In this document: positions 30,688 through 54,139 of the stretch, piece by piece
Layout of the letters: the number at the start of each line of letters is the position of its first letter
How positions within the stretch are numbered: position 1 is the stretch's first letter
Source of the DNA: an uncultured Dysgonomonas sp.
GTDB taxonomy: Bacteria; Bacteroidota; Bacteroidia; Bacteroidales; Dysgonomonadaceae
Direction of reading: 5' to 3'
Assembly: GCF_900079725.1 (NCBI RefSeq)
Contig: NZ_LT599032.1
Span: forward strand, 4,646,054 to 4,710,053
Length of the DNA stretch: 64,000 nucleotides
Translations under genes and position numbers: made by a program
Notes under the pieces: model-generated
What the model was told of the DNA's origin: nothing
The model's input: the letters and a program-made list of their open reading frames with translations, nothing else
Database searches by the model: none

Positions 30688-30774
30688 TTTTAATGGTATT
30701 TATATATGTAATACAATTAACTTTTACACAACTGGGGGTGTAAACTAATTTTTTTTATAAAAACTTAATTTTTT

Positions 30775-31371
30775 TTATTGGTAGAGGAAAAACAGGAATA
30801 AGGGAAGGCAGAAATGAATGTCTGTATGTGTCGACAGGTATCCTTTAATACACTTCAGCGATTCCGAAATATGTTCCTGAACTGTATAAACTGAAATATT
30901 CAGTGTCGCAGCAATCTCTTTATGCGACATATGTTCTATTCTGCTCAATACAAATACCTTTTTTCTGGCCGGAGGTAACCTATTTATTGCAGCTTTAAAA
31001 AGACTTTTATATTCTGAATCTATAATTTCATTATCAGTAGATGCTTGTTCGAGCAGACTTTTGCTCATAATAAGGTTCATTACATTTTCCTCTGTATTAT
31101 ATCTTTTCAATGTGTTCAATATCCTGTTTTTGGTAATAGTAAAAAGATAGGAAGAGAAATTATAATTGGAATCAATAAAAAGACGACTTTCCCACAAATG
31201 AGTAAATATATCTTGTATAGTATCCTCTGTAAGATCGCTATCCTTTAAAAACTTTAGAGTGAACAAGAACAGACGTTTCTTATAACGTATATACAATTCA
31301 CAAAAAGCATTTTCATCGCCTTTTGAAAGTAATTCCGCAAGATGTTTATCTGTCTTTTCTTTATAAAGCAT
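30775..31371 (-). CDS. ECF RNA polymerase sigma factor
   Basis: A 198-residue ECF sigma of the Bacteroidetes FecI-like kind. Region 2 (about 20-90) shows ALY-type ENAFCELYIRYKKRLFLFTL, DLTEDTIQDIFTHLWE and SSYLFTITKNRILNTLKR. Region 4 (about 125-180) has LPPARKKVFVLSRIEHMSHKEIA plus a helix-turn-helix NISVYTVQEHISESLKCI. The protein ends in a hydrophobic tail (FCLPLFLFFLYQ), which is unusual for sigma factors in general and may contribute to anti-sigma or membrane contact. It probably activates susCD and the arabinose enzymes when FecR releases it. Confidence 0.94.
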   Translation of the reverse strand: MLYKEKTDKHLAELLSKGDENAFCELYIRYKKRLFLFTLKFLKDSDLTEDTIQDIFTHLWESRLFIDSNYNFSSYLFTITKNRILNTLKRYNTEENVMNLIMSKSLLEQASTDNEIIDSEYKSLFKAAINRLPPARKKVFVLSRIEHMSHKEIAATLNISVYTVQEHISESLKCIKGYLSTHTDIHFCLPLFLFFLYQ

Positions 31372-35827: not shown

Positions 35828-35843
35828 ATGTATGTTCATACAT
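35828..35843. promoter_or_regulatory. Predicted GntR operator 1
   Basis: ATGTATGTTCATACAT is an inverted repeat with perfect 7-bp arms and a two-base centre, 65 bases upstream of the GH92 start. It matches the site at 51179-51194 in 15 of 16 positions when that site is read on the opposite strand. Confidence 0.7.
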
Positions 35844-35949
35844 TTATGGAGTGTAAAGTAAATTAGTTTTTTCTAATATTCAAAATATTAAGCTTCTTTT
35901 TTTGTGTTTTATATTTAACGGTTCATTATTGTTTTGTTCTTTATTTTTT

Positions 35950-35965
35950 TACTATGTTCATACAT
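35950..35965. promoter_or_regulatory. Predicted GntR operator 2
   Basis: TACTATGTTCATACAT keeps the core TATG-TT-CATA and the right arm CATACAT; only the outer left arm differs from operator 1. Confidence 0.62.
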
Positions 35966-36216
35966 TTTAGTAATATAGGTGATGGTGTGTAGGTGTTATT
36001 TGGGGATTCTTGTTTGTTATTTTATGATAGATGTGTATTGGTGAATATTAGTGAGAGGTTTTTGTCGTTGCTGTGCGGATAATTGGTGATTTTGGTTTGT
36101 TTTTAGACTCTGGTTGTATTAAGGTGTGATTGGTGTCTCATTAGTCTTAGATGAAAATGAAGGGGTGAGAGAGTGAATTGCTTCAGTAGCGTCATCTTTT
36201 TTCACTTTTTATATAA

Positions 36217-36232
36217 TTGTATGAACAATATA
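36217..36232. promoter_or_regulatory. Weak GntR operator-like site
   Basis: TTGTATGAACAATATA keeps GTATGAAC but has an imperfect second arm. It may be a low-affinity auxiliary site or chance. Confidence 0.35.
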
Positions 36233-36425
36233 TTATTATGTATTTACAGGTTTTATGGGGTTCGATTAATATTTAACATAGTTAAAAATGTTCTTGTTGT
36301 TGTTTGTAAAATATTTATAATTAGTTAATTGTATGCTATTTATTATTTTGACAAATTCTATTTATTGAAAAAAAAAATCAAAAATAATGTTTAAGATAAA
36401 AACATTTTATATATTAGCTGCCTGA

Positions 36426-36441
36426 AAGTATGTTCATACAT
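36426..36441. promoter_or_regulatory. Predicted GntR operator 3 (GH38 side)
   Basis: AAGTATGTTCATACAT has the perfect core GTATG-TT-CATAC. It lies 199 bases upstream of the GH38 start and 8 bases after a TATATTAG box, a geometry suited to repression at the transcription start. Confidence 0.65.
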
Positions 36442-36639
36442 ATTGTAATGGGTGAGCAAAAGTGGAATAGGATATGCTAACTTGGGGAATAGGGGGCTTT
36501 TCAATTTTAGAAACAATCTAAAATGCTCTAAAATACTCATTGTATCGTAATTCAAATTAGGTGAAATTTTTCTCTTTATAAAATGGGTTACCTATAACTA
36601 ACGTGATTAACCATTAATACTAACAAAAAGTCTAAAAAT

Positions 36640-39600
36640 ATGAGGATGATAAGAAAAGGTATCTTTTCTCTTCTGATCTTAGTGAATACCATCGGAATAT
36701 ATGCGCAAAGTACCAAAGTATATACTCAGATTCCATCCGATCAGATTCAGGCAACGGCAAGTAGTGAATTGCCGGGGGCGACAGCTATGATGGCTGTTAA
36801 TGGCGAAGGAATGAACGGAGATATGCATATAGCGCATAATCTTGGACACACAATGTGGACATCTCAGGCTTCTACGAAAAAGGTACGGGCGAATGAATTT
36901 ACCAGAGAAGGTATTGTCTGGTTTATGTGCGAGGTCGGTAGTACTTCAACTCCCGCACAGATTGATTTGATCAGAATATGGAATGACAATCAAAGCCAAC
37001 ATACACGCAGGGGGTTGAAGAAAGTATATATAGAATACTCTGCTGATGGGAAGATATGGAAACTCTTGAAAAATAATGGACTGGATTATCATATTATAAA
37101 TGAATCGAAAGGACAGAATCCCGAGCCTGCGAATTTCACATTTGATACAGGCGGGATTAAGGCGAAATATATATGTTTTACAGCCGATGCTGATGGAAAC
37201 GGTAACTATTATGATCCTAAAGATAAATATATAATCAGGGAAGCTGCTGACATGCAGCAGAATGTAAATTATTACGGACTGAGTGAGATAAGATTCTACA
37301 GGAAGGAAAACAAACAGATTTCGAAACTTACTCCATTAAATAAGATGTCTTTCGTTGCTTCACAAGGATATTTGAAGACTGATAAAGGGCCGAGCCGTGA
37401 ATATACATTGAAATTTGATGTACCCCTGTTTTGTGGAGGAGAACTCGAATTCGATATAAATGGACGTAAATGGAGGGAGGCTGTCAAGCCATCCGCGATA
37501 GGAATATCTGTGATCGAAGGGCGGTTCCCGGCAGGTTATATGGAAGAGAGCGCCGAAGTATCGGTGAACTTTCGCAGCAAGCAAGGTAATCTAACTGATA
37601 GCTATACTGTTTTGGGAGCTCGCCAATGGAAACTGTATTTCTTACCCCATTCACATTTGGATATAGGTTATACACATGTGCAGGATGATGTAATGAAGCT
37701 ACAGTGGCGCAATTTTGAGCGGGCGCTGGAACTGGCAGAGCGTACAGCGGATAATCCCGAAGGCTCACGATTCAAATGGAATTCGGAGGCTACATGGGCT
37801 CTGATGGGATATCTCGATCATTACAAAGGGACGGAGAAAGGCGATAAAATGATTCATGCTATTAAAGACGGTATGATTGGCGTCGATGCATCTTTGGGTA
37901 GCATACTCACCGGAATTTGCAAACAGGAGGAACTTATGCACATGTTCGATGATGCGCACCGCATTTCCGAACTTACTGGTGTGGAATTCAATACGGCAAT
38001 GATGAGCGATGTTCCCGGACAATCGTGGGGCATGGTTACGGCAATGGCTCAGAATGGTGTGAAGTATTATTCATCGGGACCCAATTATGTACCTTTCTAC
38101 GGAAAGGTAGGTAATGACCGAGCCGCACATCTGCATGTGAAGTGGGGCGATAAACCGTTTTACTGGCTATCTCAGTCAGGTAAGGAAAAAGTATTATTCT
38201 GGCAGACCGGCAGGGGGTATTCATGGTTTCATGGCTGGTTGATAAACAGGCTTTCTGCTTGTGGTGTAACTCCTATATGGGAATACCTTACCGATTTGGA
38301 ATCGAAGGAATATCCGTATGCTACTACTTATCTGCGTTATACGGTGAACGGAGATAACGGGCCGCCCGATCAGTGGATGCCGGATGTAATAAAGGAGTGG
38401 AACGAAAAATACGATTCTCCTAAGTTTTATATAGGTACTACCAAAGAACTTTTCACAGAGTTTGAAAAACAATATGGTGATGATATTCCGGTTTATGGCG
38501 GCGATATAACTCCTACATGGGAAGACGGAGCAGCTTCTACAGCCCGCGAACTGGCGATGAATCGCGAAAGTTCGGAACGTCTCAACCAGACCGAGATACT
38601 ATGGAGTATGCTTCATCCGAAGCAGTTTCCTGCAAATGATTTTCTGGAGGCTTGGAAAAATGTTGTCCTGTTTTCGGAACATACCTGGGGGGCTTCGGCC
38701 AGCGGGACTGAACCTGAATCGGAGTTTACAAAGAAACTGTGGGCTGGAAAGAAATTGTACGCGGATAATGCAGATTCGCAGTCGAGAAAACTTTATGCCG
38801 ATGTCTTTTCAGGAATGCAATCCGATAAAGGCAGCTATATACATGTATTCAATACCAATCTGTGGAAAAGAACTGATATAGTGGTCATTGAAAAGGGTAG
38901 TGACCTGACAGGTAAAGTATTGGAAAGCCCATCAGGAGAGATCATTCCTTTGCAGAAGTTGCATGACGGCAGATGGATATTTATGGCAAAAGATATTCCC
39001 GCACTTTCGTCTGTTGTATATAAAGTTTCGGATGACAAGAGAAATATGGTAGGCATAGCTTCAATGATAAACGACAATATACTCGATAATGGTATTGTAA
39101 AGGTTGAAATAGACAAGATAAAAGGTACAATTTCTTCATTTACAAAGGCTGGTGAAGACTATAATTATTCATCCGAGCGAGGTTTGAATGATTATATCTA
39201 TACAGGGCGTTTTGCTTCAGATCCGCAATGGGTAGAAAATATCAAACAAATTATTGTACTGGATGATGGCGAAGTTGCAGCGACCTTGCGTGTAGAGTCG
39301 GATGCGCCGGGCTGCCGTTCGTTATGGAGAGACATTACGGTATATAAAGAGTTAGGACGCGTAGATATTCTGAATACGATAGATAAAGAGAATATTTATA
39401 AGCCTGAAAACGTCCGTTTTATTTTCCCATTCAATATAGCCCATGCAGATATCAAAATGGATTTGGCAATGGGAGATATGCATCCCGAGCGTGACCAGCT
39501 GGCAGGAGTGAATAAAAATTACTATTCGATACAGAACGGTATCAGTGCAAGCAATCTTAGCCATGGAGTCTACCTGACAACGATAGATGCTCCTTTCGTA

Positions 39601-40125
39601 GAACTGGGAGAGATGAGCAGCGATGTATGGCGTAAGGAAGGAGGCGGACTTGGCTGGTGGTCTTCAGCTTTGATTTCTCCGAAGATATATTCGTGGGTAA
39701 TGAATAATTCATGGAGGACAAACTATAAGGCATCTCAGGAAGGTATTGCAGCATTTCGTTACTCGTTGGAGCTATTCGATCCGTTCGATCAGCAGCTTAA
39801 GAAACAAGGCACAGAGCAGGCTCAGAAAATGATTGCGGTTGTTTCCGAAAAACCTGTCGGAATAGATAATCTATTCAGGCTTAAAGGTAAGAATCAGATT
39901 TCGGTATCTACCATAAAACCTTCCGACGATGGCAAAGGTTATATTATACGCTTGTTGAATCTCAATGATCAGAGTGTACATTCTTCATTTATCTGGAATA
40001 GAATGCAGGCAGACGATGTGTACTTCTGCGACCATAACCAGCAAAGGACAGGTGATTTCGACGATTCTTCTTTCTGGCTAAAACCTCATGAATGCATAAC
40101 CTTGAAAGTTATCAGTAAAAAATAA
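36640..40125 (+). CDS. GH38 alpha-mannosidase with N-terminal discoidin-like domain
   Basis: An 1161-residue exported enzyme (signal peptide about 1-22, NTIGIYAQ). Residues about 30-225 look like an F5/8 type C domain (IQATASSELPGATAMMAVNGE, WTSQAS). The GH38 domain begins near 328 with the zinc/active-site strand LYFLPHSHLDIGYTH (His337, His339, Asp341); the nucleophile is Asp457 in AMMSDVPGQSW. Long C-terminal beta domains follow. It is a retaining alpha-mannosidase that would act on alpha-linked mannose, probably in the periplasm. It is the first gene of a five-gene plus-strand run (GH38, GH92, susC, susD, DUF3823); 21 bases separate it from the GH92 gene. Confidence 0.92.
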   Translation: MRMIRKGIFSLLILVNTIGIYAQSTKVYTQIPSDQIQATASSELPGATAMMAVNGEGMNGDMHIAHNLGHTMWTSQASTKKVRANEFTREGIVWFMCEVGSTSTPAQIDLIRIWNDNQSQHTRRGLKKVYIEYSADGKIWKLLKNNGLDYHIINESKGQNPEPANFTFDTGGIKAKYICFTADADGNGNYYDPKDKYIIREAADMQQNVNYYGLSEIRFYRKENKQISKLTPLNKMSFVASQGYLKTDKGPSREYTLKFDVPLFCGGELEFDINGRKWREAVKPSAIGISVIEGRFPAGYMEESAEVSVNFRSKQGNLTDSYTVLGARQWKLYFLPHSHLDIGYTHVQDDVMKLQWRNFERALELAERTADNPEGSRFKWNSEATWALMGYLDHYKGTEKGDKMIHAIKDGMIGVDASLGSILTGICKQEELMHMFDDAHRISELTGVEFNTAMMSDVPGQSWGMVTAMAQNGVKYYSSGPNYVPFYGKVGNDRAAHLHVKWGDKPFYWLSQSGKEKVLFWQTGRGYSWFHGWLINRLSACGVTPIWEYLTDLESKEYPYATTYLRYTVNGDNGPPDQWMPDVIKEWNEKYDSPKFYIGTTKELFTEFEKQYGDDIPVYGGDITPTWEDGAASTARELAMNRESSERLNQTEILWSMLHPKQFPANDFLEAWKNVVLFSEHTWGASASGTEPESEFTKKLWAGKKLYADNADSQSRKLYADVFSGMQSDKGSYIHVFNTNLWKRTDIVVIEKGSDLTGKVLESPSGEIIPLQKLHDGRWIFMAKDIPALSSVVYKVSDDKRNMVGIASMINDNILDNGIVKVEIDKIKGTISSFTKAGEDYNYSSERGLNDYIYTGRFASDPQWVENIKQIIVLDDGEVAATLRVESDAPGCRSLWRDITVYKELGRVDILNTIDKENIYKPENVRFIFPFNIAHADIKMDLAMGDMHPERDQLAGVNKNYYSIQNGISASNLSHGVYLTTIDAPFVELGEMSSDVWRKEGGGLGWWSSALISPKIYSWVMNNSWRTNYKASQEGIAAFRYSLELFDPFDQQLKKQGTEQAQKMIAVVSEKPVGIDNLFRLKGKNQISVSTIKPSDDGKGYIIRLLNLNDQSVHSSFIWNRMQADDVYFCDHNQQRTGDFDDSSFWLKPHECITLKVISKK

Positions 40126-40146
40126 ACCGAAAAACAATTTTATAAT

Positions 40147-42495
40147 ATGATAAAACGAATTATTCCAATTACAGTCCTTGCAATTTCTTGTATAATGGCA
40201 TCTTGCGAGAAAAAGCCTCTCTTGTCGGACTATGTTGATCCGGGTATCGGAACAGCCCATTCTCGCTGGTTCTTTTATACTCCGGCTGCCGTTCCGTTTG
40301 GTATGGCAAAGCTTGCCCCCTCTACAGACGGGCACTTAGGAAATTCGGGCGGATGGCAGGCTGTAGGCTACGATGCTCGGCATACATCTATCGAGGGTTT
40401 TGCTAATTTTCACGAATTTCAGGTGGGTGGTGTTGTTATAGCACCTACAGTCGGTAAGCTACAAACTGTTCCGGGAGCATTAGACAGCGTTCAGAACGGC
40501 TATCGTTCTACCTTCGACAAAAAAGATGAATTCGCCTCTCCGGGATACTACTCCGTATTGCTCAAAGATTACAATGTGAAAGCCGAACTCACAGCAACAA
40601 AGCGTGTAGGGTTTCACCGTTATACATTCCCCGCATCGGAAGAAGCCAACCTGATATTCGATATCGGCAACCGTCAGGGAGAAAGCGGATATGTGAAAGA
40701 TGCATCGGTGACATATACCGACGACGGACGTATAGAAGGATGGGTTACCACCATACCGGTCTATGTGAATATATATCAAAAAGGTGCTACCGTGTCTATG
40801 TATTTCAGCGCCGAACTGGATAAGAAACCAACGGCGTTCGGTTCGTTTGTAAAAGATACCGTATATCCCGATTCGAAGACTCAGACAGGAGTCGGAGCCG
40901 GACTTTATTTCAAATTCAAGACTAAAGACCAGGAGGCTGTAAATATAAAGATAGGACTATCCTATACTTCCATAGAAAATGCACGCCTGAATATGGAAAC
41001 CGAAGCTAAAAATATGAGTTTCGACAAAGCTCATAAAAATGCGACCGACACATGGGAAGAATATCTTGGGCGCATAGAAGTGGAAGGTGGGGAATACAAC
41101 GACCGTGTGAAATTCTATACAGGCTTGTATCATGCGTTGCTTGGCCGTGGATTGGCTAGTGATGTGAACGGGGCTTATCCCAAAAACGATGGTGGAGTAG
41201 GGCAGATAGCTCTGAATGAAAAGGGAAAACCAAGTCATAACCATTATAATACAGATGCTATCTGGGGAGGCTTCTGGAATCTTACCCAATTGTGGGCTGT
41301 GGCTTATCCCGAATATTATTCAGACTGGATACAGAGCCAGCTTCTTGTCTACAAGGATGCCGGATGGTTAGGCGATGGCATTGCCTGTAGTAAGTATGTA
41401 TCGGGTGTAGGAACTAATTTTACGAGTTTGGCTATAGCAGCAGCATACAATTGTGGTATCCGCGATTTCGATGTGAATACTGCATACGAGGCGGCCCTGA
41501 AGAATGAAATAGATGGAAAAGATCGTTTGGCAGGAGCCGGTAAGCTTGATGTGGAGCAGTTTGTCAACAGAGGCTACTCACCTTATACAACCAATCTGTC
41601 TATGCGTACGACTTCCGAAGGTTCCGGTTTCGGGGCTTCGCATACAATGGAATATTCATTCAGTAGTTTTGCTGTAGCTCAGATGGCAAAGCATTTGAAC
41701 AAGGAGGACGATTATAAACTTTTATCGAAGCTATCGGAGGGTTGGAAGACTCTTTTCGATCCTGAGACAAAACTGATACGTCCGCGTGACGACAAAGGCG
41801 AATTTATAAAAGATTTTGATCCCTTTGCTCCTTGGATCGGGTTTCAGGAAGGGAATGCGATACAGTACACATATTATGTGCCTCATCAGATAGATGAACT
41901 TATCAATCTGATAGGTGCAGATGATTTCAATGTACGTCTCGATAGCACATTCCAGATATCACAAAAGAATATATTCGGCGGAGGGCAGACTATAGATGCA
42001 TTTGCAGGCTTGCACACATATTACAATCATGGTAATCAGCCCAATCTGCATATCTCCTGGTTATTCAACTTTTCGGGAAAACCTTATCTATCACAAAAAT
42101 GGGTGAGAGCCATCTGTAACGAATTCTACGGAGTAGAAGGCATTCACGGATACGGATACGGACAGGATGAAGATCAGGGACAATTAGGCGCATGGTATGT
42201 AATGGCCGCAATGGGACTTTTCGATGTGAAAGGTCTGACAGAGATAGATCCTATGTTCCAGATCGGTAGCCCGCTGTTCGACAAGATTACTATCAGGCTC
42301 AACAAGGATTATTATCCGGGTAAGGAGTTTGTGATAGAAACACTGAATAACTCGAAAGATAATATGTATATCCAATCAATAGATGTGAATGGAAAACCCC
42401 ATAATACGGTTCAACTACCTTTCTCGGAAGTAGTCAAAGGTGGTCGTATGTCAATCAGCCTATCAGATAAACCTAACACAGAACTGAATAAATGA
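40147..42495 (+). CDS. GH92 alpha-mannosidase lipoprotein
   Basis: A 782-residue lipoprotein (lipobox IMASC, Cys20) made of a bare GH92 fold: VDPGIGTAHSRWFFYTP at the start, FHEFQVGGV (89-96), acid candidate Glu568 in FQEGNAIQY, and DEDQGQLGAWYV from 674. The segment that reads MEYSYDDW in the paralog at 32578 is MEYSFSSF here (501-508), losing two acidic residues, so substrate or linkage preference may differ. It is co-transcribed with GH38 upstream. A 131-base gap with no terminator separates it from susC. Lipid anchoring suggests surface or outer-membrane placement, ahead of import. Confidence 0.93.
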   Translation: MIKRIIPITVLAISCIMASCEKKPLLSDYVDPGIGTAHSRWFFYTPAAVPFGMAKLAPSTDGHLGNSGGWQAVGYDARHTSIEGFANFHEFQVGGVVIAPTVGKLQTVPGALDSVQNGYRSTFDKKDEFASPGYYSVLLKDYNVKAELTATKRVGFHRYTFPASEEANLIFDIGNRQGESGYVKDASVTYTDDGRIEGWVTTIPVYVNIYQKGATVSMYFSAELDKKPTAFGSFVKDTVYPDSKTQTGVGAGLYFKFKTKDQEAVNIKIGLSYTSIENARLNMETEAKNMSFDKAHKNATDTWEEYLGRIEVEGGEYNDRVKFYTGLYHALLGRGLASDVNGAYPKNDGGVGQIALNEKGKPSHNHYNTDAIWGGFWNLTQLWAVAYPEYYSDWIQSQLLVYKDAGWLGDGIACSKYVSGVGTNFTSLAIAAAYNCGIRDFDVNTAYEAALKNEIDGKDRLAGAGKLDVEQFVNRGYSPYTTNLSMRTTSEGSGFGASHTMEYSFSSFAVAQMAKHLNKEDDYKLLSKLSEGWKTLFDPETKLIRPRDDKGEFIKDFDPFAPWIGFQEGNAIQYTYYVPHQIDELINLIGADDFNVRLDSTFQISQKNIFGGGQTIDAFAGLHTYYNHGNQPNLHISWLFNFSGKPYLSQKWVRAICNEFYGVEGIHGYGYGQDEDQGQLGAWYVMAAMGLFDVKGLTEIDPMFQIGSPLFDKITIRLNKDYYPGKEFVIETLNNSKDNMYIQSIDVNGKPHNTVQLPFSEVVKGGRMSISLSDKPNTELNK

Positions 42496-42626
42496 TTTTA
42501 AAATAATAACTAAAAATTCAATCCATGAAAATGAAAGATTCGTTTGATACTGCTACCTAGAGACATAGGCGTAAAATGAGACTTAAATTATTATTGATTT
42601 ATCAAACACATTAAAAACTATGAAGT

Positions 42627-45600
42627 ATGAAATTTAAAGTTAACTTCTTAAATCTATTTAGCCTGTTTAAAGTTTGCATGTGCGCCACATTACTGCTGGC
42701 CTCTGCAAATCTTTATTCGCAGCAAAGCAAGACGGAGGTTTCAGGTGTTGTAAAAGACGCAATGAATGAAGCCATTATAGGAGCCAGTGTAGTAGAAAAA
42801 GGAACTACCAATGGTATAGCGACTGATGTAGACGGGAGTTTTTCAATAAAAGTAAATCCAAATTCTACATTGGTAATATCTTCTATCGGATACGTAACGC
42901 AGGAAATAAAAGTAGGGAATAAAACTTCGCTCAAAGACCTTAATATAGTACTGGTAGACGATAGCAAGCTGATGGACGAGGTAGTGGTTGTTGGATACGG
43001 TGTGCAAAAGAAAGCTACACTGACAGGTGCAGTTTCTGCCATTAAGAATGAAGAGATCATTACAACCAAGAACGAAAGTGTGCAGAATATGCTTACCGGA
43101 AAAGTGGCAGGTTTGCGTGTCGTTCAAAACTCATCCGAACCCGGACAATTTAGCGGATCGATGGATATACGCGGTTTAGGAAGTCCGCTGATTGTTATAG
43201 ATGGAGTTCCACGTGGTAATATGGCGCGTTTGGATGCAGAAGATATAGAGAGCATTTCGGTACTTAAAGATGCTTCGGCAGCTATCTATGGTGTTAACTC
43301 GGCAAATGGTGTTATTTTGGTAACAACTAAGCGAGGCGAAAAGGGAAAGGTTAGCCTTAGCTATTCGGGGAATGTGTCTTGGCAGATGCCTACTAACTTC
43401 CCTGATCTGGCAAATGCAGTAGACTGGATGACTCTATTCAACGAACGCACAATGCATAATGTAGACGGGCCTAACCGTCCTTATACAGATGAGCAAATCG
43501 AAGCTTATCGCAATGGTACAATACAGAGTACCGATTGGAAGAAAGAGGTTCTTCGGAGCAGTGCACCTCAGACTATGCATACATTAAGTGCTACCGGAGG
43601 TACAGAGGCGTTGAGTTATTATGCGAGTATCGGTTACCAGACTCAGGAGAGTTTCTTAAAGACAAATGCCATTAACTATGAGAAATATACTATTCGTAGT
43701 AATATTTCTTCTCAGATAACTAAAAATCTCCGATTTGATTTAAATCTGGCTGGATTACTCGATGAGCGGCAATCATCAGTTTATAGTTCTAATGATATTG
43801 TACGGGGTATGTGGCTTATGCAACCGATGGATAAGGTTTACTATAATGAAGAAGAAGGTCAGTACTGGCAACCTACCAATGGCGGATTACAAAATCCTGT
43901 CACTATGATGAATAAAGGTGTAACCGGCGCTAACTCATATAAAAGTAAATGGTTTCAATCGAATGCCTCTTTGAGATATGATATGCCATTCGTTAAAGGC
44001 TTGTATGCGAAAGGTATGTATAGTTACGACTATACGTTGAATGATAACAAAGAGTTTATGAAAGCTTATAAACTTTACGACTCGGGTGGTGCAGCAAAAA
44101 CATGGAATGGACAAAGTGATGCCCCAAATAAGGTATCCCGGTATTTTTACGGAAAGGATGCAACCTTATGGAATATCCAGATTGGTTTCGACAGGCAATT
44201 CGGTAAACATAATGTGTCGGCGATGGCACTCTATGAGAATACGCATAAAGAAGGAGATAACTTTTATGGTAACAGACAGCTTCTATTGCCTTTAGATCAG
44301 TTGTTTACAGGTATAACGGATAAGATGCAGATCAATCAGTCCACAGCTGCATCTTCTCTTTACGATTATGCATACAATGCTTATGTAGGACGTGTTAAAT
44401 ATGATTTCACAGGTAAATATCTGGCTGAGTTTACGTTAAGGCATGAGTCTTCATCAAGATTCCCGGATAATTCCCGTTGGGCAACAACTCCCGGAGTCAT
44501 GGCAGCCTGGCGTGTATCAGAAGAGGGATTCTTTAAGAAATCACCACTTAAATTCATCGATAATCTGAAACTACGCGGATCTTACGGACGGATGCTCGAT
44601 GATGCGTCAACAAACGATTATAATTTCTTGACGGGATATTACTATCCGGCTTCTGGCGGTAATAGTGCAGGACTTCCTTCTGGTTATATTTTTGATGGAT
44701 CATTCGTCAATAGTTCCAGCAATAAGGGGCTGGCAAATACAGCTATTACCTGGTATAAATCCGATATGTTGAATATAGGCTTGGATATGGACGCATGGAA
44801 TGGATTCTTGGGCGTAACTGCCGAGTATTTTCAGAGAAAACGTACAGGCTTGTTAGCGACTCGTTCCCAGTCGATTCCGGGGATTGTAGGTGCTTCCCAA
44901 CCGCAGGAAAATCTGAATAGCGATCTGACGAGAGGTTTCGAATTGGAACTTAGTCATCGCAACAGAATAGGTGATTTTGATTATCAGGTGAAAGGTAATA
45001 TGTCATTTACTCGTGTAAAGACAATATATTATGAACAATCGAAGAGAGGCAATTCATACCTGAACTGGAGGGAGAATAACAATGAACGCTATAATAATAT
45101 ATGGTGGGGATATGGAGGAGACGGACGTATAACCAGTTGGGATCAGATATATCATAATCCTGTTTATATCGGGCGTGGTACTACTCTGGGGGATTATCAA
45201 TATCAAGACTGGAATGGTGATGGGCAAATAAATGACCTGGATGTACATCCGCTCGCAATGAACGGTATGACACCTCTGATTTATTATGGAATCACTATAT
45301 CTGCATCATGGAAAGGGATAGATCTTACTATGCTATGGCAAGGTGGAGGTAAACGCTATGTTGCTCCAAGACAATTTTTATATCAGCCTTTGTGGGCAGA
45401 TACGAATGCTCTTACACAGTTCTTGGATCGCTGGCGTCCGTCGGACCCTACCGCAAGCCCTTACGATCCAGCTACAGAATGGATAAGCGGACATTATGCT
45501 TATACCGGAACCAGCCCGAATTATAATTCTGAATTTAATATTCAAAATGGTGCATACTTAAGGCTCAAGAATATAGAATTGGGATATACACTTCCAAAGA

Positions 45601-45797
45601 AATGGCTTTCGGCTTTGAATATACAGAATGTTAGGGTATATGTAAGTTCATATAATCTATTGACATTTACTAAATTAAAATATATGGATCCTGAATTTTT
45701 TACAAATCCTGACGATAGTAAAGGTGGATTAGGTGATTACGGATATAGTTACCCGCTCAATAAAACTGTTACAGTAGGAATGAATATAAAATTCTAA
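42627..45797 (+). CDS. SusC-family TonB-dependent transporter (mannoside PUL)
   Basis: A 1056-residue outer-membrane importer with signal peptide (about 1-31, LLLASANLYSQQ), a CarboxypepD_reg-like domain (KTEVSGVVKDAMNEAIIGAS, about 35-110), a TonB-box/plug start MDEVVVVGYGVQKKATLTG and a 22-strand barrel ending in VTVGMNIKF. There is no STN domain, unlike the SusC of the arabinose PUL, which agrees with regulation by something other than an ECF/FecR pair. SusD follows 11 bases later. The substrate is inferred to be mannose-rich oligosaccharides from the GH92/GH38 neighbours. Confidence 0.95.
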   Translation: MKFKVNFLNLFSLFKVCMCATLLLASANLYSQQSKTEVSGVVKDAMNEAIIGASVVEKGTTNGIATDVDGSFSIKVNPNSTLVISSIGYVTQEIKVGNKTSLKDLNIVLVDDSKLMDEVVVVGYGVQKKATLTGAVSAIKNEEIITTKNESVQNMLTGKVAGLRVVQNSSEPGQFSGSMDIRGLGSPLIVIDGVPRGNMARLDAEDIESISVLKDASAAIYGVNSANGVILVTTKRGEKGKVSLSYSGNVSWQMPTNFPDLANAVDWMTLFNERTMHNVDGPNRPYTDEQIEAYRNGTIQSTDWKKEVLRSSAPQTMHTLSATGGTEALSYYASIGYQTQESFLKTNAINYEKYTIRSNISSQITKNLRFDLNLAGLLDERQSSVYSSNDIVRGMWLMQPMDKVYYNEEEGQYWQPTNGGLQNPVTMMNKGVTGANSYKSKWFQSNASLRYDMPFVKGLYAKGMYSYDYTLNDNKEFMKAYKLYDSGGAAKTWNGQSDAPNKVSRYFYGKDATLWNIQIGFDRQFGKHNVSAMALYENTHKEGDNFYGNRQLLLPLDQLFTGITDKMQINQSTAASSLYDYAYNAYVGRVKYDFTGKYLAEFTLRHESSSRFPDNSRWATTPGVMAAWRVSEEGFFKKSPLKFIDNLKLRGSYGRMLDDASTNDYNFLTGYYYPASGGNSAGLPSGYIFDGSFVNSSSNKGLANTAITWYKSDMLNIGLDMDAWNGFLGVTAEYFQRKRTGLLATRSQSIPGIVGASQPQENLNSDLTRGFELELSHRNRIGDFDYQVKGNMSFTRVKTIYYEQSKRGNSYLNWRENNNERYNNIWWGYGGDGRITSWDQIYHNPVYIGRGTTLGDYQYQDWNGDGQINDLDVHPLAMNGMTPLIYYGITISASWKGIDLTMLWQGGGKRYVAPRQFLYQPLWADTNALTQFLDRWRPSDPTASPYDPATEWISGHYAYTGTSPNYNSEFNIQNGAYLRLKNIELGYTLPKKWLSALNIQNVRVYVSSYNLLTFTKLKYMDPEFFTNPDDSKGGLGDYGYSYPLNKTVTVGMNIKF

Positions 45798-45808
45798 ATA
45801 TTAATATT

Positions 45809-47776
45809 ATGAAACATCTAAAATATATATTATTACTTTGTCTGGGTTTGTTCATGGCATGTACAGATTTGGATATTCCGCCAAAGAATATAATCGGTGA
45901 CCCCGAAATATTCGGTACTACAGAAGGTACTATGAGTTATATAGCGCGGATGTACAGCAGGCTTCCAATGGAAGATTTCAGGTACAATTATGAAAAAAGT
46001 GGCTTGTTCAATAATGCAGATACAAAATATAAGCAACAATCCGGTTTGACAGGAGAGGCCTTGGGTCGTGATACCAAAGGAGCTGAAGCTGAAAGTGCAA
46101 GTTATTGGGATGTAGCTTATTCTGCGATCCGCGATGCCAATTTATTTATAGAAACACTCCCGAAATATGCGTCAGCTCATAGTCAGGCCGACTATAATAC
46201 TTATTTGGCCGAAGCCTATTTTGTGAGGGCATTCCTTTATTATTCGCTGGTTAAACGTTATGGTGGTGTACCTAAAGTGGATTATGTAATTGATTATCCG
46301 GCGAGTGTCGATGTAGAGGGTACAAGGCTTTTCCGTGATTCGGAAGAGGCTATATGGGATCTCATAGCTTCTGATTTGGATTATGCAATAACTAACCTGC
46401 CAAAAACGAATCAAAAAGGGCGTGCCAACAGATATGTTGCTGCTGCGTTTAAATCACGCACCATGCTTCATGCAGGATCGATCGCTAGGTACAATACAAT
46501 CAGTGAGGAATACAACGGAGTAAGGATATGCGGAATTCCGTCTACCCGAGCAAACGATTATTTCAAAGCGGCTTACGAAGCCAGTAAAATTTTAGATGAA
46601 ACTACAACGTATGGCCTTTATGAAGCTGAATGGGTTGACGGGGATAAGACCGCTCAAACAACTAATTTTGTTAATATCTTCCTTAAGGATACAAAGGAGA
46701 ATATATTTGTGAGGTATTTTAAGGATCCGGAGTCAGTACATAATTTTGATGATTCGGCACAACCAATGCAGACATCTACAGGAGGTAATAACTCGGAAAT
46801 CTGTCCGACCCTGGATTTTGTAGAAATGTTTGACGGTATAGATAAAGATTCCAATGGGAAATTTAAAAATCTGGATTCCAATGGAAAATATATATTGTAT
46901 AATTCTCCACTTGATGCTTTTGCAAACTGTGAACCTCGTTTGAGAGCAACGGTAATACTCCCTATGGATGAGTTTAAAGGTAAGACTATAGACTTGCGTC
47001 GTGGAATATGGACAGGGACCGTGGGGACAGGTATCAGCCGGCTGATGCCTGAAGGTAGTGTTACCGATTATAATGTAGTATATGGAGAATCAAGTAATTT
47101 GAAGCTTTCAAGCGATTTTTCTTTCAACAATCAGGCAGCTAATGCTATCTTGTTGAAGGATGGCGTTAGTAAGATGAAAAGAGCCGGAGAAAGTGGTGTT
47201 GTTTCGGGATGGGATTTCGGAAATATCAGTGGCTTCTATCTTCGCAAATATTTGGATCCCAATCTGGCGGATAATAATGGTAATAAATCGAGTCAGAATT
47301 GGATTGAAATCCGCTATGCAGAAGTGTTGCTCAATCGTGCCGAAGCTGCAAATGAACTATTTCTTGCTGGTGTAAGTACGGCATCTACAGGAGAAAGCTA
47401 TCGCGAAGAAGCATTTCGTTGTATCAATCTTATAAGAAGACGGGCAGGAGCTACATTATTGACAAGTTCAGCTCCTTTGAGTGATATTAATGTGGTCCGG
47501 ACTGAAAGGAGAAAAGAGCTTGCTTTCGAACATAAGACTTATTGGGATTTGAAACGTTGGAGAGTCATCTATGATGAACAAACTAACAGACGCTACAGAG
47601 TTCTATATGCTTTTTATTCCACCGATGCTGAAAAATATTTTCTGGACTCAAGGTTTATGGAATCAAAAGCCGGAAATAACTATATTTTTAATTTCGATAC
47701 TAAGAATTATTATCAGCAAATACCTACAGGTGAGATAACTAAGAATCCGAACTGTAAGCAAAATCCGGGTTATTAA
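45809..47776 (+). CDS. SusD-family glycan-binding lipoprotein (mannoside PUL)
   Basis: A 655-residue outer-membrane lipoprotein (lipobox LFMAC, Cys18). It carries the SusD/RagB landmarks: AYSAIRDANLFIETL, YLAEAYFVRAFLYYSLVKRYGGVP (about 131-154), IRYAEVLLNRAEAANEL and the ending GEITKNPNCKQNPGY. It is longer than the arabinose SusD, with an extended middle. It pairs with the SusC immediately upstream and would bind alpha-mannosides at the cell surface. Confidence 0.95.
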   Translation: MKHLKYILLLCLGLFMACTDLDIPPKNIIGDPEIFGTTEGTMSYIARMYSRLPMEDFRYNYEKSGLFNNADTKYKQQSGLTGEALGRDTKGAEAESASYWDVAYSAIRDANLFIETLPKYASAHSQADYNTYLAEAYFVRAFLYYSLVKRYGGVPKVDYVIDYPASVDVEGTRLFRDSEEAIWDLIASDLDYAITNLPKTNQKGRANRYVAAAFKSRTMLHAGSIARYNTISEEYNGVRICGIPSTRANDYFKAAYEASKILDETTTYGLYEAEWVDGDKTAQTTNFVNIFLKDTKENIFVRYFKDPESVHNFDDSAQPMQTSTGGNNSEICPTLDFVEMFDGIDKDSNGKFKNLDSNGKYILYNSPLDAFANCEPRLRATVILPMDEFKGKTIDLRRGIWTGTVGTGISRLMPEGSVTDYNVVYGESSNLKLSSDFSFNNQAANAILLKDGVSKMKRAGESGVVSGWDFGNISGFYLRKYLDPNLADNNGNKSSQNWIEIRYAEVLLNRAEAANELFLAGVSTASTGESYREEAFRCINLIRRRAGATLLTSSAPLSDINVVRTERRKELAFEHKTYWDLKRWRVIYDEQTNRRYRVLYAFYSTDAEKYFLDSRFMESKAGNNYIFNFDTKNYYQQIPTGEITKNPNCKQNPGY

Positions 47777-47795
47777 TAACAAAAATATTGACGAT

Positions 47796-48557
47796 ATGAG
47801 AAATACTATATTATATATTGCTTTGTCTCTATTGATGTTCTTGGGAATGGCATCGTGCGCTGATGACAATTATCCTGAGCCTAAAGAGACATTCAGAGGT
47901 AAGTTTGTAGAAAAAGGAACAAATAAGCCTTTTCAGACAGCTATTGGGAATACAGGTGTACGCATCCGTATGATGGAGTATAGCTGGAGTGATACGCCTC
48001 AACCATACGATTTTAATTGTAAAATGGATGGAACATTCAATAATACAAAGATATTCAAAGGTGAATATGGAATTATACCGTCCGGTGCATTCGTACCGCT
48101 ACCTGAAGAGAAAATGACCATTAGCGGTACAGTGGAAAAAACGTATGAGGTAGAACCTATCCTCAAGATAGAATGGGATGGAGAACCGGTTGTAAATACA
48201 GACAGAACGGTAACAGTAAAGGTGAAAGTTACATATGGATCTGATAATGCAACATATCAGAAACCTCTGGTCGAAGGTTGGTTATTTATAAGCGAAACCG
48301 ATTATGTAGGTGATTTTAGTTATAGCCCTAATTACTCAGTTAAATGTGACCCTGCCAAAATGGGAGTGGGAGCTTCTGAAATTTTAGGACCTAACGGAAC
48401 TACTTTTACAATAAATACTTCGTCGGCATCAAAGTCTTTCCCGGACTATGCCCGAAAGTATTTTATCAGATTCGGGGTACGCACCTCTGTTACGTTTGAT
48501 GCAACAAATCGTTATAATTATACCGAGGTAAAAGAAGTTTCTATTCCAGCTAGTTAA
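47796..48557 (+). CDS. DUF3823-family surface lipoprotein
   Basis: A 253-residue lipoprotein (lipobox GMASC, Cys21). The N-terminal beta domain (about 28-125, FRGKFVEKGTNKPFQTAIGNT...DGTFNNTKIFKGEY) is of the carboxypeptidase-regulatory/transthyretin type and is followed by a second beta sandwich, as in DUF3823 proteins found just after susCD in many PULs. It probably serves as an additional surface glycan-binding protein. It is 19 bases downstream of susD and closes the operon before a bidirectional terminator. Confidence 0.85.
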   Translation: MRNTILYIALSLLMFLGMASCADDNYPEPKETFRGKFVEKGTNKPFQTAIGNTGVRIRMMEYSWSDTPQPYDFNCKMDGTFNNTKIFKGEYGIIPSGAFVPLPEEKMTISGTVEKTYEVEPILKIEWDGEPVVNTDRTVTVKVKVTYGSDNATYQKPLVEGWLFISETDYVGDFSYSPNYSVKCDPAKMGVGASEILGPNGTTFTINTSSASKSFPDYARKYFIRFGVRTSVTFDATNRYNYTEVKEVSIPAS

Positions 48558-48573
48558 AACAACAAATGAGAGT

Positions 48574-48617
48574 ATAAAAAGAAAACGGTAAGATTAATCT
48601 TACCGTTTTCTTTTTAT
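48574..48617. terminator. Bidirectional terminator
   Basis: A 20-bp perfect stem (48574-48593 with 48598-48617) around a TTAA loop, flanked by A and T runs on both sides. It lies between the DUF3823 gene (plus) and the sulfatase gene (minus) and suits both. Confidence 0.92.
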
Positions 48618-48630
48618 ATGGCCTCAGATA

Positions 48631-50202
48631 CTATTCTGTAACTTTCAATTCTTTTCTTTTCTCTTCGAGAAGTATATGAAGCCGTTCTCTTACCTTCGAA
48701 TATTTCTTATCATTATACACATTATTAACTTCTGTCGGGTCTTTTTTCAGGTCATATAATTCCCAGCTATCAATATCCTTGTCGTTGATTTCCCCTTTGC
48801 CGTACCAATGTATAAGTTTATACCTTTTGTCCCGTATTCCGTAATGCTTGCGTGTCATTCCTACAGCGGGATAATCATAGAATTGATAATAGAGATTATC
48901 TCTCCATTTATCAGAAGTTCCGGTCAATAATGGGATCAGTGATTCTCCGGCCATGTCATCGGGTTTATTAACTCCGGCGGCATCCAGAAGGGTTGGTGCA
49001 TAATCTATATTTTGAACAAGTTCTGTACATTTTGTCCCTTTTTTTGCTCCCGGTAAAGCGATAATAAGCGGTGTTCTGAAAGCTTCTTCGTACATGAAGC
49101 GTTTGTCATAGAGCCCATGCTCTCCCAGATAGAAACCCTGATCGGAAGTATATACAATAATCGTGTTTTCCATAAGGTTATTATTTTCCAGGTAGTCAAG
49201 TAATCTGCCCACCTGGACATCCACACTTTTTATTGTGCGGCAATAGTCTTTGATATATCGTTGGTATTTCCATTGGGTGAGTTTCTTTCCTTCCGGCCTG
49301 TTAGCAAGGAAGTCCTTATTTTTTTTATCATACGATTCGTTCCATACTCTGAGTTGCTCAGGTGTTAATGTACTTATAGCCATGTCAAAGCTCGCTTTGA
49401 TATAATCCAGTGTCGGTTCGTTTTGCAGTTGGGAAATTTTCAGGTCGAAGGCATATCCGAGATGCTTGGCAACAGAAAGTTCGTGTGTTTTCATCTGTTC
49501 GCCTCTGGTACTATAATTATCGAATAAAGTAGCCGGTTCGGGAAATTCAACGTCTTCATACAACTCGAGATATTGGAGGTCGGGCATCCAGTTTCGGTGA
49601 GGAGCTTTGTGATGAACCAATACACAGAACGGTTTGTTTTTGTCGCGGAATATAAGCCAGTTCAAAGCATCATCAGTTACAAGATCGGTTGCATAACCCT
49701 CTTCTTGTATATATTTTCCGTCCGATTCCGGTGTTCTGAACTTTGGATTGTAATATTCGCCCTGATCATCAAATATCTTATATGTATCAAATCCTTTCGG
49801 TTGAGCGCTCAAGTGCCATTTGCCGAACAATGCGGTCTGATAGCCTGCATTTTGCAAATACTCTACAAAGAATTTTTTGTTGGGCTTTAATCCGTAACCA
49901 AGGTGTGTTTGCCCATGTTGGTGGCTATACATTCCTGTCAACAGCGTTGCTCTACTGGGAGTAGAAATTGAGTTTTCTACAAATGCATTATTAAAGAGCA
50001 TTCCGTTTTGCGCTATCCGGTCCAGATTGGGAGTAGGAGCAAGCTTCGAAATAGGATGGCCATATGCGCTTAATGCCTGAAAGGCATGATCATCGGTCAT
50101 GATGAACAAGATATTCATCGGTTTTTTTATGTCTTGGGCTATGATTCCGTTGCTGATGCATGCGGAGATACCAAGTAAAGCATATAAAGGTGAATTTTTC
50201 AT
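48631..50202 (-). CDS. S1-family sulfatase (serine-type)
   Basis: A 523-residue exported protein (signal peptide about 1-22, ISNGIIAQ) of the alkaline-phosphatase-like sulfatase fold. Metal ligands appear in LFIMTDDHA (Asp37-Asp38), and the modification motif is SISTPSRATLLTG: Ser80 in S-x-P-x-R, the serine version, which needs an anaerobic radical-SAM maturase to become formylglycine. YTSDQGFYLGEHGLYDKR supplies the later ligand set. It removes sulfate esters, presumably from a sulfated mannoside. It has its own promoter and is separated by hairpins from GntR and DUF3823. Inclusion in the mannoside system is by position. Confidence 0.92.
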   Translation of the reverse strand: MKNSPLYALLGISACISNGIIAQDIKKPMNILFIMTDDHAFQALSAYGHPISKLAPTPNLDRIAQNGMLFNNAFVENSISTPSRATLLTGMYSHQHGQTHLGYGLKPNKKFFVEYLQNAGYQTALFGKWHLSAQPKGFDTYKIFDDQGEYYNPKFRTPESDGKYIQEEGYATDLVTDDALNWLIFRDKNKPFCVLVHHKAPHRNWMPDLQYLELYEDVEFPEPATLFDNYSTRGEQMKTHELSVAKHLGYAFDLKISQLQNEPTLDYIKASFDMAISTLTPEQLRVWNESYDKKNKDFLANRPEGKKLTQWKYQRYIKDYCRTIKSVDVQVGRLLDYLENNNLMENTIIVYTSDQGFYLGEHGLYDKRFMYEEAFRTPLIIALPGAKKGTKCTELVQNIDYAPTLLDAAGVNKPDDMAGESLIPLLTGTSDKWRDNLYYQFYDYPAVGMTRKHYGIRDKRYKLIHWYGKGEINDKDIDSWELYDLKKDPTEVNNVYNDKKYSKVRERLHILLEEKRKELKVTE

Positions 50203-50232
50203 GATATATTAAATAAAATCGAAGTATATTCT

Positions 50233-50248
50233 ATATGTATATACATAT
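50233..50248. promoter_or_regulatory. Perfect palindrome at the sulfatase promoter
   Basis: ATATGTATATACATAT is a 16-bp perfect palindrome 31 bases upstream of the sulfatase start, directly after a -7 box. It would overlap the transcription start. It is similar in letters to the GntR sites but has different half-site spacing. Confidence 0.45.
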
Positions 50249-50249
50249 G

Positions 50250-50257
50250 CAAATATA
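50250..50257 (-). promoter_or_regulatory. Sulfatase promoter -7 box
   Basis: CAAATATA on plus is TATATTTG on minus, an exact TAnnTTTG match about 48 bases upstream of the sulfatase start codon. Confidence 0.5.
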
Positions 50258-50305
50258 TTAAATAAATATCTAATAGATGAAGAAAAATAAAAGAAACTAT
50301 ATAGA

Positions 50306-50331
50306 AAAAGCCTTCTGAAGAGAAGGCTTTT
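50306..50331 (-). terminator. Terminator of GntR gene
   Basis: An 11-bp stem AAAAGCCTTCT/AGAAGGCTTTT with a GAAG loop, 21 bases beyond the regulator stop, with T-rich sequence after it on the minus strand. Confidence 0.85.
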
Positions 50332-50351
50332 ATTTTGTATTAAGAAGGCTT

Positions 50352-51080
50352 TTATCTTTGGGCTTCCAGTGTATATGTAAAGCTGTCAGCTCTGTAGTAA
50401 CCGATGTTGTATTCTATCGGTACATCGTTGATATCATATACAAAACGTTTTCGAATCAGTATAGGGTCGTTGGGTGATATTTCCAGTTTATCGGCTATAA
50501 AGTCTCCGGCTAATCTGGCACATATCTCTTCTTTAGATGTTTTAACGACTATATCATAATTATGTTCTAACAATTCGTACAGAGGAATGTTGAAGTTTTC
50601 TTCTCCCGTAAGAGGTATGCTGGGATTGAAATAAGATATGAAATATACGAAGGGATATTCTTCGCTACCACGAACCCGTTCTAGTTTCAGGCAACGTGTA
50701 TCCACTTCCACATTGAAAAAATCAGCTACTTCCTTATATACCTTTTGAGTTCCGATAAAAAGCTCAAAGTTCTTAATCTTTATCCCCAGCATTTTCATCT
50801 CCTGTGAGAAACTCAGCCAGTTTTTCACGCCACCGACAAAGCCTTTCCGGGCGACTTTGGTGCCATAGCCTTTTCTGCGTACAAGAAGTCCTTCGAATAC
50901 AAGTTTGTTAATCGCCTGCCTTAATGTGTTCCTGGATATATTAAATTGTTTGGACAATTCAATCTCTTTGGGCAGCAACTTCCCGTTTTTGTATTCTTCT
51001 TCGTCTATCAACCTCCGAAGGAATTCCTCTGCTTGCAGATGAAGAGGCTTTGAGCTTTCACGATTAACTTCTATTTTCAT
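50352..51080 (-). CDS. GntR-family (HutC/UTRA) transcriptional regulator
   Basis: A 242-residue regulator when started at the ATG read at 51080; a longer frame would add 30 hydrophobic residues that do not fit the family. The N-terminal winged helix (about 1-78) shows LLPKEIELSKQFNISRNTLRQAINKLVFEGLLVRRKGYGT, the GntR recognition helix and wing. The C-terminal UTRA domain (about 95-242) has LKLERVRGSEEYPFVYFISYFNP and ends PIEYNIGYYRADSFTYTLEAQ, the usual sugar-phosphate or small-ligand pocket. It is divergent from the isomerase/MFS/ROK operon with a predicted operator between them. Mannose-6-phosphate or a related sugar phosphate is a reasonable effector by inference. Confidence 0.92.
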   Translation of the reverse strand: MKIEVNRESSKPLHLQAEEFLRRLIDEEEYKNGKLLPKEIELSKQFNISRNTLRQAINKLVFEGLLVRRKGYGTKVARKGFVGGVKNWLSFSQEMKMLGIKIKNFELFIGTQKVYKEVADFFNVEVDTRCLKLERVRGSEEYPFVYFISYFNPSIPLTGEENFNIPLYELLEHNYDIVVKTSKEEICARLAGDFIADKLEISPNDPILIRKRFVYDINDVPIEYNIGYYRADSFTYTLEAQR

Positions 51081-51135
51081 AGCTTCTTGTTTATATGAAT
51101 TGTTCAACAGTTTTACAAAATAACATAAAAAAATA

Positions 51136-51165
51136 TTGGTAAACAAAAAAAGATGTATATATTTG
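51136..51165 (+). promoter_or_regulatory. Promoter of isomerase/MFS/ROK operon
   Basis: TTGG (51136-51139, one base off TTTG) and TATATTTG (51158-51165) are 18 bases apart. The predicted operator begins 13 bases after the -7 box, over the transcription start, a classic repressor position. Confidence 0.6.
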
Positions 51166-51178
51166 CACAATGATATAT

Positions 51179-51194
51179 ATGTATGAACATATAT
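51179..51194. promoter_or_regulatory. Predicted GntR operator at own/isomerase promoter
   Basis: ATGTATGAACATATAT is the complement-strand form of ATGTATGTTCATACAT with one change. It lies between the divergent GntR and isomerase genes. Confidence 0.72.
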
Positions 51195-52958: not shown

Positions 52959-52976
52959 CAATATAGAGCTAAGCTT

Positions 52977-54137: not shown

Positions 54138-54139
54138 TT

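Follow-up and report, generated by a model that had tools for sequence, protein, structure and literature searches.

Predicted operators of a probable ManR-type GntR-UTRA regulator in a mannoside locus of an uncultured Dysgonomonas species

We analyzed a 64,000-nucleotide stretch of the genome of an uncultured Dysgonomonas sp. (contig NZ_LT599032.1, positions 4,646,054 to 4,710,053, forward strand; hereafter the window) that carries a mannoside-utilization locus and, within it, the gene of a GntR-type regulator with a UTRA domain. From the letters alone, an original prediction had proposed that an inverted repeat, ATGTATG-TT-CATACAT, is a shared operator of this protein, present in the gap between two divergent glycoside hydrolase (GH) genes of families 92 and 38 and again between the regulator gene and an isomerase operon. 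Judging from sequence, we conclude with a probability of about 0.82 that the GntR-UTRA protein represses mannoside use in the manner of ManR, acting via these operators and being released by a sugar phosphate. The predicted sites and the promoter elements near them are listed here; TAnnTTTG is given as the -7 consensus of Bacteroides promoters in passages of PMC7366714, and Dysgonomonas sp. UBA7710 is a relative whose regulator is 100% identical to that of the window.

35828..35843, plus strand: predicted operator 1; dyad 35831-35844, centre 35837.5; 65 bp upstream of the GH92 start; core kept in UBA7710
35950..35965, plus strand: predicted operator 2; dyad 35953-35966, centre 35959.5; core kept in UBA7710
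36217..36232, minus strand: weak operator-like site TTGT-TCAT-ACAA; 12.7 with the seeded matrix, fifth with the unseeded one; kept in UBA7710
36410..36417, plus strand: candidate -7 box TATATTAG of the GH38 operon, one mismatch, read by eye; 18.5 bp before the centre of operator 3
36426..36441, plus strand: predicted operator 3; perfect dyad 36429-36442, centre 36435.5
50234..50247, no strand: predicted operator 5, TATGT-ATAT-ACATA; perfect dyad in the sulfatase promoter, missed by the original prediction
50250..50257, minus strand: exact -7 box TATATTTG of the sulfatase promoter; -33 match poor
51136..51165, plus strand: isomerase-operon promoter TTG-N19-TATATTTG, from the promoter scan
51179..51194, minus strand: predicted operator 4; perfect dyad 51178-51191, centre 51184.5; 19.5 bp after the -7 box

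Re-scanning the window recovered all four of the originally predicted sites at their exact coordinates (35828-35843, 35950-35965, 36426-36441 and 51179-51194). With up to three mismatches allowed and both strands counted, the predicted 16-mer matched the window eight times against 1.29 expected, a count that 0 of 100 shuffles reached. Matches fell at 35828 (no mismatches), 36426 (one), 51179 on the minus strand (one), 35950 (three) and 45640 (three), the last lying within the susC open reading frame (ORF) and taken as chance. A genome-wide scan had been proposed as a check on the motif. Run with patterns on the organism's own genome (the matrix scan covered the window and relatives' loci), it confined the strict motif to the window: the shared 13-mer core TATGTTCATACAT has four copies in the 5,219,467-bp genome, all of them in the window, compared with none for the reversed control, and the 16-mer at up to one mismatch has three places, again all in the window. 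The looser motif did not hold up in the same way. At three mismatches the whole genome gave 94 matches and the control 106, so that the strict core alone is informative. A genome match at 1755836 (matrix score 19.9), which overlaps a possible start codon, was taken as chance; the remaining WTGTTCAWACAW matches outside the window scored at most 14.0 and, all except L218, lay within mechanically called ORFs.

The motif accompanies the regulator across genomes. Relatives of the regulator were encoded on 522 contig stretches, of which the best 80 loci were kept; orthologues found in this way extend outside the Bacteroidales to Sphingobacterium, Pararcticibacter and Niabella. A survey of the family matched the protein in 57 of 101 genomes at an E value of 0.001, and the 32 matches (31 genomes) with E below 1e-60 were treated as orthologues. 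Within 300 bp upstream of the regulator orthologue, 53 of 78 usable loci (two of the 80 were too short for this count) held a 16-mer with no more than three mismatches to that of the window, as against 0.9% of shuffles. With seven loci excluded, 71 promoters remained that come from outside Dysgonomonas and its near kin; 12 of them were dropped for having more than four mismatches, and the other 59 gave a seeded matrix. This matrix placed the four sites of the window first, at 24.1 to 21.7, with the next score at 14.8. Because its training promoters were picked by their best match to the window's own 16-mer, this ranking is not independent. An unseeded search of the 71 orthologue promoters outside Dysgonomonas returned TGTTCATACA as the top 10-mer, present in 43 of them, whereas the best 10-mer of simulated sets reached 4-7. 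The matrix built on those 43 promoters scored the window at 26.7 (35950), 25.2 (51179), 23.7 (35828) and 22.8 (36426). Ranks five and six went to 36209-36236 (14.5), the very copy at 36217 that had been called weak, and to 50227-50254 (14.3), which holds the 50234 site; the next score was 10.8. The unseeded matrix thus reproduces the order of importance given by the seeded one.

The seeded matrix underlies the locus counts that follow, as well as the dyad symmetry, -7-box spacing and regulon-reach results. At a score of at least 17 it found 81 matches over the 80 loci, where 1.0 was expected. Of these, 57 were in the regulator gap and so overlap with the training set, and 19 lay no more than 500 bp upstream of homologues of regulon genes; none fell within such homologues, and four of the five elsewhere were within 100 bp past the regulator stop. 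An extra good operator directly past the regulator stop, ahead of the next gene, was seen in L072, L073, L109, L119, L170, L174, L208 and L209. For regulon reach, homologues were found by tblastn in 10-kb flanks and operators were taken at a matrix score of at least 15.5. SusC, SusD, GH92 or related genes lay in the isomerase's same-strand run under the operator in 35 of the 80 loci, and an operator stood ahead of GH92, GH38 or SusC in 12; by either arrangement, 40 loci linked an operator to mannoside-locus homologues (SusC, SusD, GH92, GH38, DUF3823).

The exact 13-mer gave a similar picture at the level of genomes. In 24 regulator-bearing genomes it had 26 matches in 17 genomes, compared with three for the control, and 24 of the 26 lay within 20 kb of the regulator. 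Within Dysgonomonas it occurred in 6 of 9 genomes with the regulator and in 2 of 16 without; in an order-wide sample the figures were 9 of 25 and 34 of 367 (Fisher p 0.0005). In UBA7710 all 39 bases of the three 13-base cores in the GH92/GH38 gap are unchanged, while the gap as a whole is identical at 642 of 843 positions; assuming independent bases, three unchanged cores have a chance of about 2e-5. Genome G022 has just two gap sites scoring at least 14, and its copy of operator 3 carries one core change. Some good sites lie far from the regulator: in D. macrotermitis (L182 18687), 17 kb away near isomerase-like and GH92-like genes, and in Bacteroidales bacterium F22 (L189 4898), 120 kb away and 1.5 kb before a GH92 homologue. 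Strong matrix matches (21.9-22.6; L191 4775, L192 4985, L193 4644) also occur in Dysgonomonas genomes G009, which has no close orthologue, and G014, where they are away from the regulator; these could reflect chance or another regulator.

The dyad itself needed correction. The palindrome of the original prediction is a full fit at 35828 only, and the better dyad is TATGT-TCAT-ACATA, with its centre two bases to the right. The conserved stretch is TATGTTCATACATA, in which the outer left arm of the first-proposed palindrome is weak; in UBA7710 this arm differs at all three gap sites. We place the centre two bases to the right on the grounds of symmetry, of spacing in both orientations and of protein-DNA geometry. 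The symmetry score is 6.03 at the shifted centre and 4.57, the second best, at the originally proposed one. Measured from the proposed centre, the two orientations of the motif stand on average 21.35 and 16.58 from the -7 box (p 7e-9 for the difference), whereas from centre 10.5 the means of 19.35 and 18.58 are in agreement (p 0.08); centre 11.0 gives the smallest spread, with 10.5 nearly equal to it. In the NagR-DNA complex, according to sections of PMC4333415, the half-sites are 6 nt apart, with Arg48 reading G-4 and Arg38 reading G-5, and 5, 6 or 8 nt separate the guanine from its partner in GntR-DNA complexes. In our motif G7 and C14 stand at 0.96 and 0.94 with 6 nt between them; G-4 and C+4 are thus kept, and T is found at -5. 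That the dyad is nonetheless centred where first proposed seems to us improbable. The 35828 site is palindromic in that register save for the central TT, and the register does come second in symmetry. The matrix behind the symmetry and spacing tests was moreover seeded with the original 16-mer, a bias that favours the original centre, and still the two orientations disagree there in -7-box distance; that centre would also leave 2 nt between guanine and partner and fails to fit sites with an ATAT spacer. On symmetry, -7-box spacing in both orientations and NagR geometry, the first-proposed palindrome was therefore set aside as the dyad.

Placement relative to promoters points to repression. As had been noted for operator 4, a -7 box precedes it: TATATTTG at 51158-51165, with TTG at 19-bp spacing, ends 13 bases before the site. 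The site had been thought to lie over the likely transcription start and instead lies just downstream of the inferred start. The arrangement recurs in other loci: of 50 with a divergent isomerase, 45 carry an exact TAnnTTTG in the isomerase direction whose end is 15.5-21.5 bp ahead of the dyad centre. The chance rate of a -7 box in that seven-position band is 0.0055; the isomerase promoters without the box in the band are those of L087, L096, L099, L123 and L130. The association of the motif with the UTRA-GntR protein is borne out: it occurs upstream of orthologues in many Bacteroidota and also at GH92 or SusC promoters, and it keeps a fixed, repressor-like place after the -7 box. In the direction of the regulator, an exact box lies 54.5-88.5 bp past the operator centre in 38 of the 50 loci, and at such a distance autoregulation is not evident.

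The other gaps of the window had been reported to hold no similar copy. This proved wrong, as a further dyad lies at 50234-50247. The corrected pattern TATGT-N4-ACATA has seven places in the genome (control, 23), three in the locus (36429, 50234 and 51178) and four elsewhere, all of the latter within mechanically called ORFs. The 50234 dyad has an ATAT spacer. In the sulfatase direction an exact TATATTTG box precedes it, with 9.5 bp from box to dyad centre when measured by hand, which would put the dyad over the transcription start. This combination of box and dyad, at 10.5 bp, also precedes SusC in genomes G510 and G651, and ATGT-ATAT-ACAT is also found upstream of the regulator in L142, L061 and L062 among 86 loci scanned.

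The protein has features of GntR/HutC repressors. GntR winged-helix (PF00392, 60 bits) and UTRA (PF07702, 92 bits) domains are both present, and the structural model (predicted TM score, pTM, 0.59) matches the fold of 2wv0 at E 3.7e-17; by sequence and model, the regulator is classed as HutC type. With residues matched by hand, R50, the equivalent of the G-4-reading Arg48 of NagR, is invariant in 26 sequences; at the position of NagR Arg38, which reads G-5, 25 of these have Val or Ile and the remaining one has Glu, and the operator likewise lacks G-5. A recognition-helix Arg and a 6-nt half-site spacing, as in GntR/HutC repressors, are thus both found. Thr90, Arg133, Arg135, Ile166 and Tyr167 are named as the phosphate ligands of NagR in portions of PMC4333415, and S92, R135, R137, L167 and Y168 correspond to them here. 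NagR Glu145, equivalent to a sugar-contacting residue of DasR, is F147 in our protein, and the effector is for this reason likely to be a sugar phosphate other than glucosamine-6-phosphate (GlcN-6-P). Our best guess is mannose-6-phosphate, on two grounds: the adjacent genes should produce and consume it, and in G510 a ROK domain and the isomerase-like part belong to a single protein. We found no experimental paper on this regulator in the open-access literature.

Several observations weigh against a ManR-type repressor acting at all of these sites. Three of the nine regulator-bearing Dysgonomonas genomes have no exact 13-mer, and G014 has copies only away from its regulator. Order-wide the 13-mer is overall as common as its control (51 and 50 matches), and several of the loci are close relatives, so that the counts are not independent events. 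The promoter scan of the window found no -7 box for the divergent GH92 gene; the GH38 box has a mismatch, was read by eye and is not among the boxes of the filtered scan; and of 24 secondary sites in other loci, just 8 are accompanied by an exact -7 box at a distance of 14-22 bp. Which of the sugar phosphates serves as effector is a guess.

These observations give some room to other explanations. The sites might be those of a different regulator that acts on these mannose genes, and might only travel with the GntR gene, as the strong matches in G009 and G014 and the distance of the regulator's own promoter (in 38 of 50 loci, 55-89 bp separate it from the operator) would allow. We consider this unlikely in view of the enrichment of the motif with the regulator, both order-wide and within the genus, and of the operator's residue-by-residue fit to NagR geometry; the ROK protein of the locus, for its part, looks like a kinase and shows no helix-turn-helix domain in the Pfam scan. 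An activator role of the GntR protein could be argued from operators 1-3, which are partly far from gene starts, and from the GH92 promoter, which was not located. It is, in our judgment, very unlikely: downstream of the -7 box, as in the 45 isomerase promoters, is a place to block polymerase, and NagR, the nearest solved relative, represses. Least probable of all is that the copies in the GH92/GH38 gap arose by chance and that the isomerase promoter alone is controlled. The gap is A+T-rich and three-mismatch matches in the genome do not exceed the control, yet the exact core occurs nowhere else in the genome, every core base of the gap sites is preserved in UBA7710 in a gap that has otherwise diverged, and operators precede GH92, GH38 or SusC in 12 of the 80 loci. 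We retain repression by the GntR-UTRA protein at all of these operators as the preferred explanation.

The genes of the locus are as follows.

32578..35763, minus strand: GH92 mannosidase gene (Pfam PF07971/PF17678), divergent from the GH38 operon; putative regulon member
36640..48557, plus strand: run of GH38, GH92, SusC, SusD and DUF3823 genes (Pfam; the GH38 match is weak, 30 bits)
36640-40125, 40147-42495, 42627-45797, 45809-47776 and 47796-48557, plus strand: GH38, GH92, SusC, SusD and DUF3823, respectively (Pfam)
48631..50202, minus strand: sulfatase gene (Pfam); putative regulon member
50305..50336, no strand: hairpin with T runs between regulator and sulfatase, read by eye
50352..51080, minus strand: GntR-UTRA regulator, ManR type, 242 aa (Pfam PF00392, PF07702), NagR-like by sequence and fold
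51228..55237, plus strand: isomerase (51228-52958), major facilitator superfamily (MFS) carrier (52977-54137) and ROK kinase (54140-55237), from Pfam, NCBIfam, PDB and fold matches

Residues 223-451 of the 576-aa isomerase match the mannose-6-phosphate isomerase of B. subtilis, and in the fold search its model likewise has isomerases of this kind as its top matches. Its first ~220 residues (51228-51902) have no Pfam match even at E 5, and this N-terminal domain has no separate match among the 50 fold-search matches listed; it is present through 18 aligned orthologues, and the model folds it with high confidence. Isomerase-like parts are fused to other sequence in proteins of about 900 residues in L210 (10301-13000) and L241 (7319-10012), and residues 4-269 of the former are a ROK domain; this fusion of ROK and isomerase lends support to the view that the ROK protein is a mannokinase. 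Since a hairpin with T runs separates it from the regulator, the sulfatase is probably transcribed from a promoter of its own. Its nearest solved relatives include mucin-desulfating and N-acetylglucosamine-6-sulfate sulfatases; in Sphingobacterium (L122, L124, L126) the sulfatase is in one run with GH92 and GH38. A diatom-mannan locus is described, in excerpts of PMC13063451, with a mannose-6-sulfate sulfatase whose model superposes on 5G2V. Adjoining the mannoside genes, the window holds an arabinan-type locus at 10792-31371 (GH127, GH43, arabinofuranosidases, GH31, SusC/SusD) with its own extracytoplasmic function (ECF) sigma factor and FecR and an STN-bearing SusC.

Control of capture, periplasmic trimming and cytosolic sugar metabolism by a single UTRA-GntR repressor had been put forward as a logic different from that of known glycan loci. 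It is not new. In the portions of Ravcheev et al. 2013 (PMC3878776) that describe ManR, this GntR regulator (BT2103; three orthologues in 11 genomes) is predicted to control mannose uptake and conversion to fructose-6-phosphate and also the BT2107-13 operon of B. thetaiotaomicron, which joins mannosidases with SusC/SusD, so that the proposed logic was already in print as a prediction. In our search the regulator was found in 22 of 158 Bacteroides genomes, a set that apparently does not include B. thetaiotaomicron itself. Of the genomes searched, G510 comes closest, at 98%, to a mannosidase tag (a PDB piece) of B. thetaiotaomicron. The G510 regulator is 61% identical to ours, and the gene order there runs regulator, operator, ROK-isomerase fusion, GH92, MFS, operator and a seven-gene run of SusC, SusD, two others, GH92, GH43 and GH38. 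As this order fits the numbering of BT2103 and BT2107-13, the regulator of the window is likely, from sequence, to be orthologous to BT2103.

The Dysgonomonas locus resembles the ManR regulon in its GntR regulator, in operator 4 before isomerase, MFS and ROK genes (activities by homology) and in operators 1-3 before GH92 and GH38-GH92-SusC-SusD. It differs in that a sulfatase joins, that kinase and isomerase are separate genes, and that the cytosolic genes and the SusCD run form divergent blocks 15 kb apart with several operators. With NagR (YvoA) of Bacillus subtilis and DasR of Streptomyces the regulator shares domain make-up, fold, six bases between half-site guanines, the G-4-reading Arg and the phosphate-binding residues; unlike them it has no Arg38 equivalent, no G-5 and Phe147 in place of NagR Glu145, and it has another operator, another pathway and probably another effector, with a SusC/SusD outer-membrane locus added. 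Hybrid two-component systems (HTCS), SusR-like regulators and ECF/FecR systems also control SusC/SusD glycan-capture genes. They sense oligosaccharides or transport at the envelope, whereas the signal here would be a cytosolic product. Among the scanned proteins no HTCS, SusR-like or ECF/FecR regulator was found except the ECF/FecR pair of the neighbouring locus (29677-31371), which adjoins another, STN-bearing SusC; the mannoside SusC (42627-45797) has no STN domain by Pfam, and an ECF/FecR pair does not accompany the mannoside run.

From the computed features (the sites, their conservation with the regulator, the -7-box spacing, the gene content and the NagR-type phosphate residues) we infer the steps of binding, repression, effector recognition, transport and phosphorylation. 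A repressor dimer would bind the 14-bp dyad TATGT-N4-ACATA, whose spacer is usually TCAT and sometimes ATAT. Situated just downstream of the transcription start or over it, the bound dyad would keep RNA polymerase off the promoters of isomerase-MFS-ROK, GH38-GH92-SusC-SusD-DUF3823, the divergent GH92 and the sulfatase. Mannose freed in the periplasm would enter via the MFS carrier and be phosphorylated by the ROK kinase, and the sugar phosphate, most likely mannose-6-phosphate, would then bind the UTRA domain and release the repressor. We hold as evenly balanced a wider proposal: that one cytosolic, mannose-6-phosphate-sensing repressor may be the only specific switch of whole mannoside loci in many Bacteroidota. 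Without any envelope sensor, it would govern outer-membrane capture jointly with the periplasmic mannosidases, a desulfating enzyme and cytosolic metabolism. Its operators would fall into two spacer classes, TCAT for those just downstream of the start and ATAT for those that lie over it, and the two classes could confer repression of different strengths.

To the ManR prediction, the locus described here adds a corrected dyad with a structural rationale, a fixed promoter spacing, a fifth operator with a sulfatase, and orthologues beyond the Bacteroidales. A single-species prediction of 2013 thereby becomes a testable, widely conserved operator code that states which base is read, by which arginine, and where on the promoter. 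The sulfatase in the predicted regulon points to sulfated mannosides as a possible substrate, and the locus draws a contrast between glycan loci that are switched by outside oligosaccharides and those that would be switched by an internal product.

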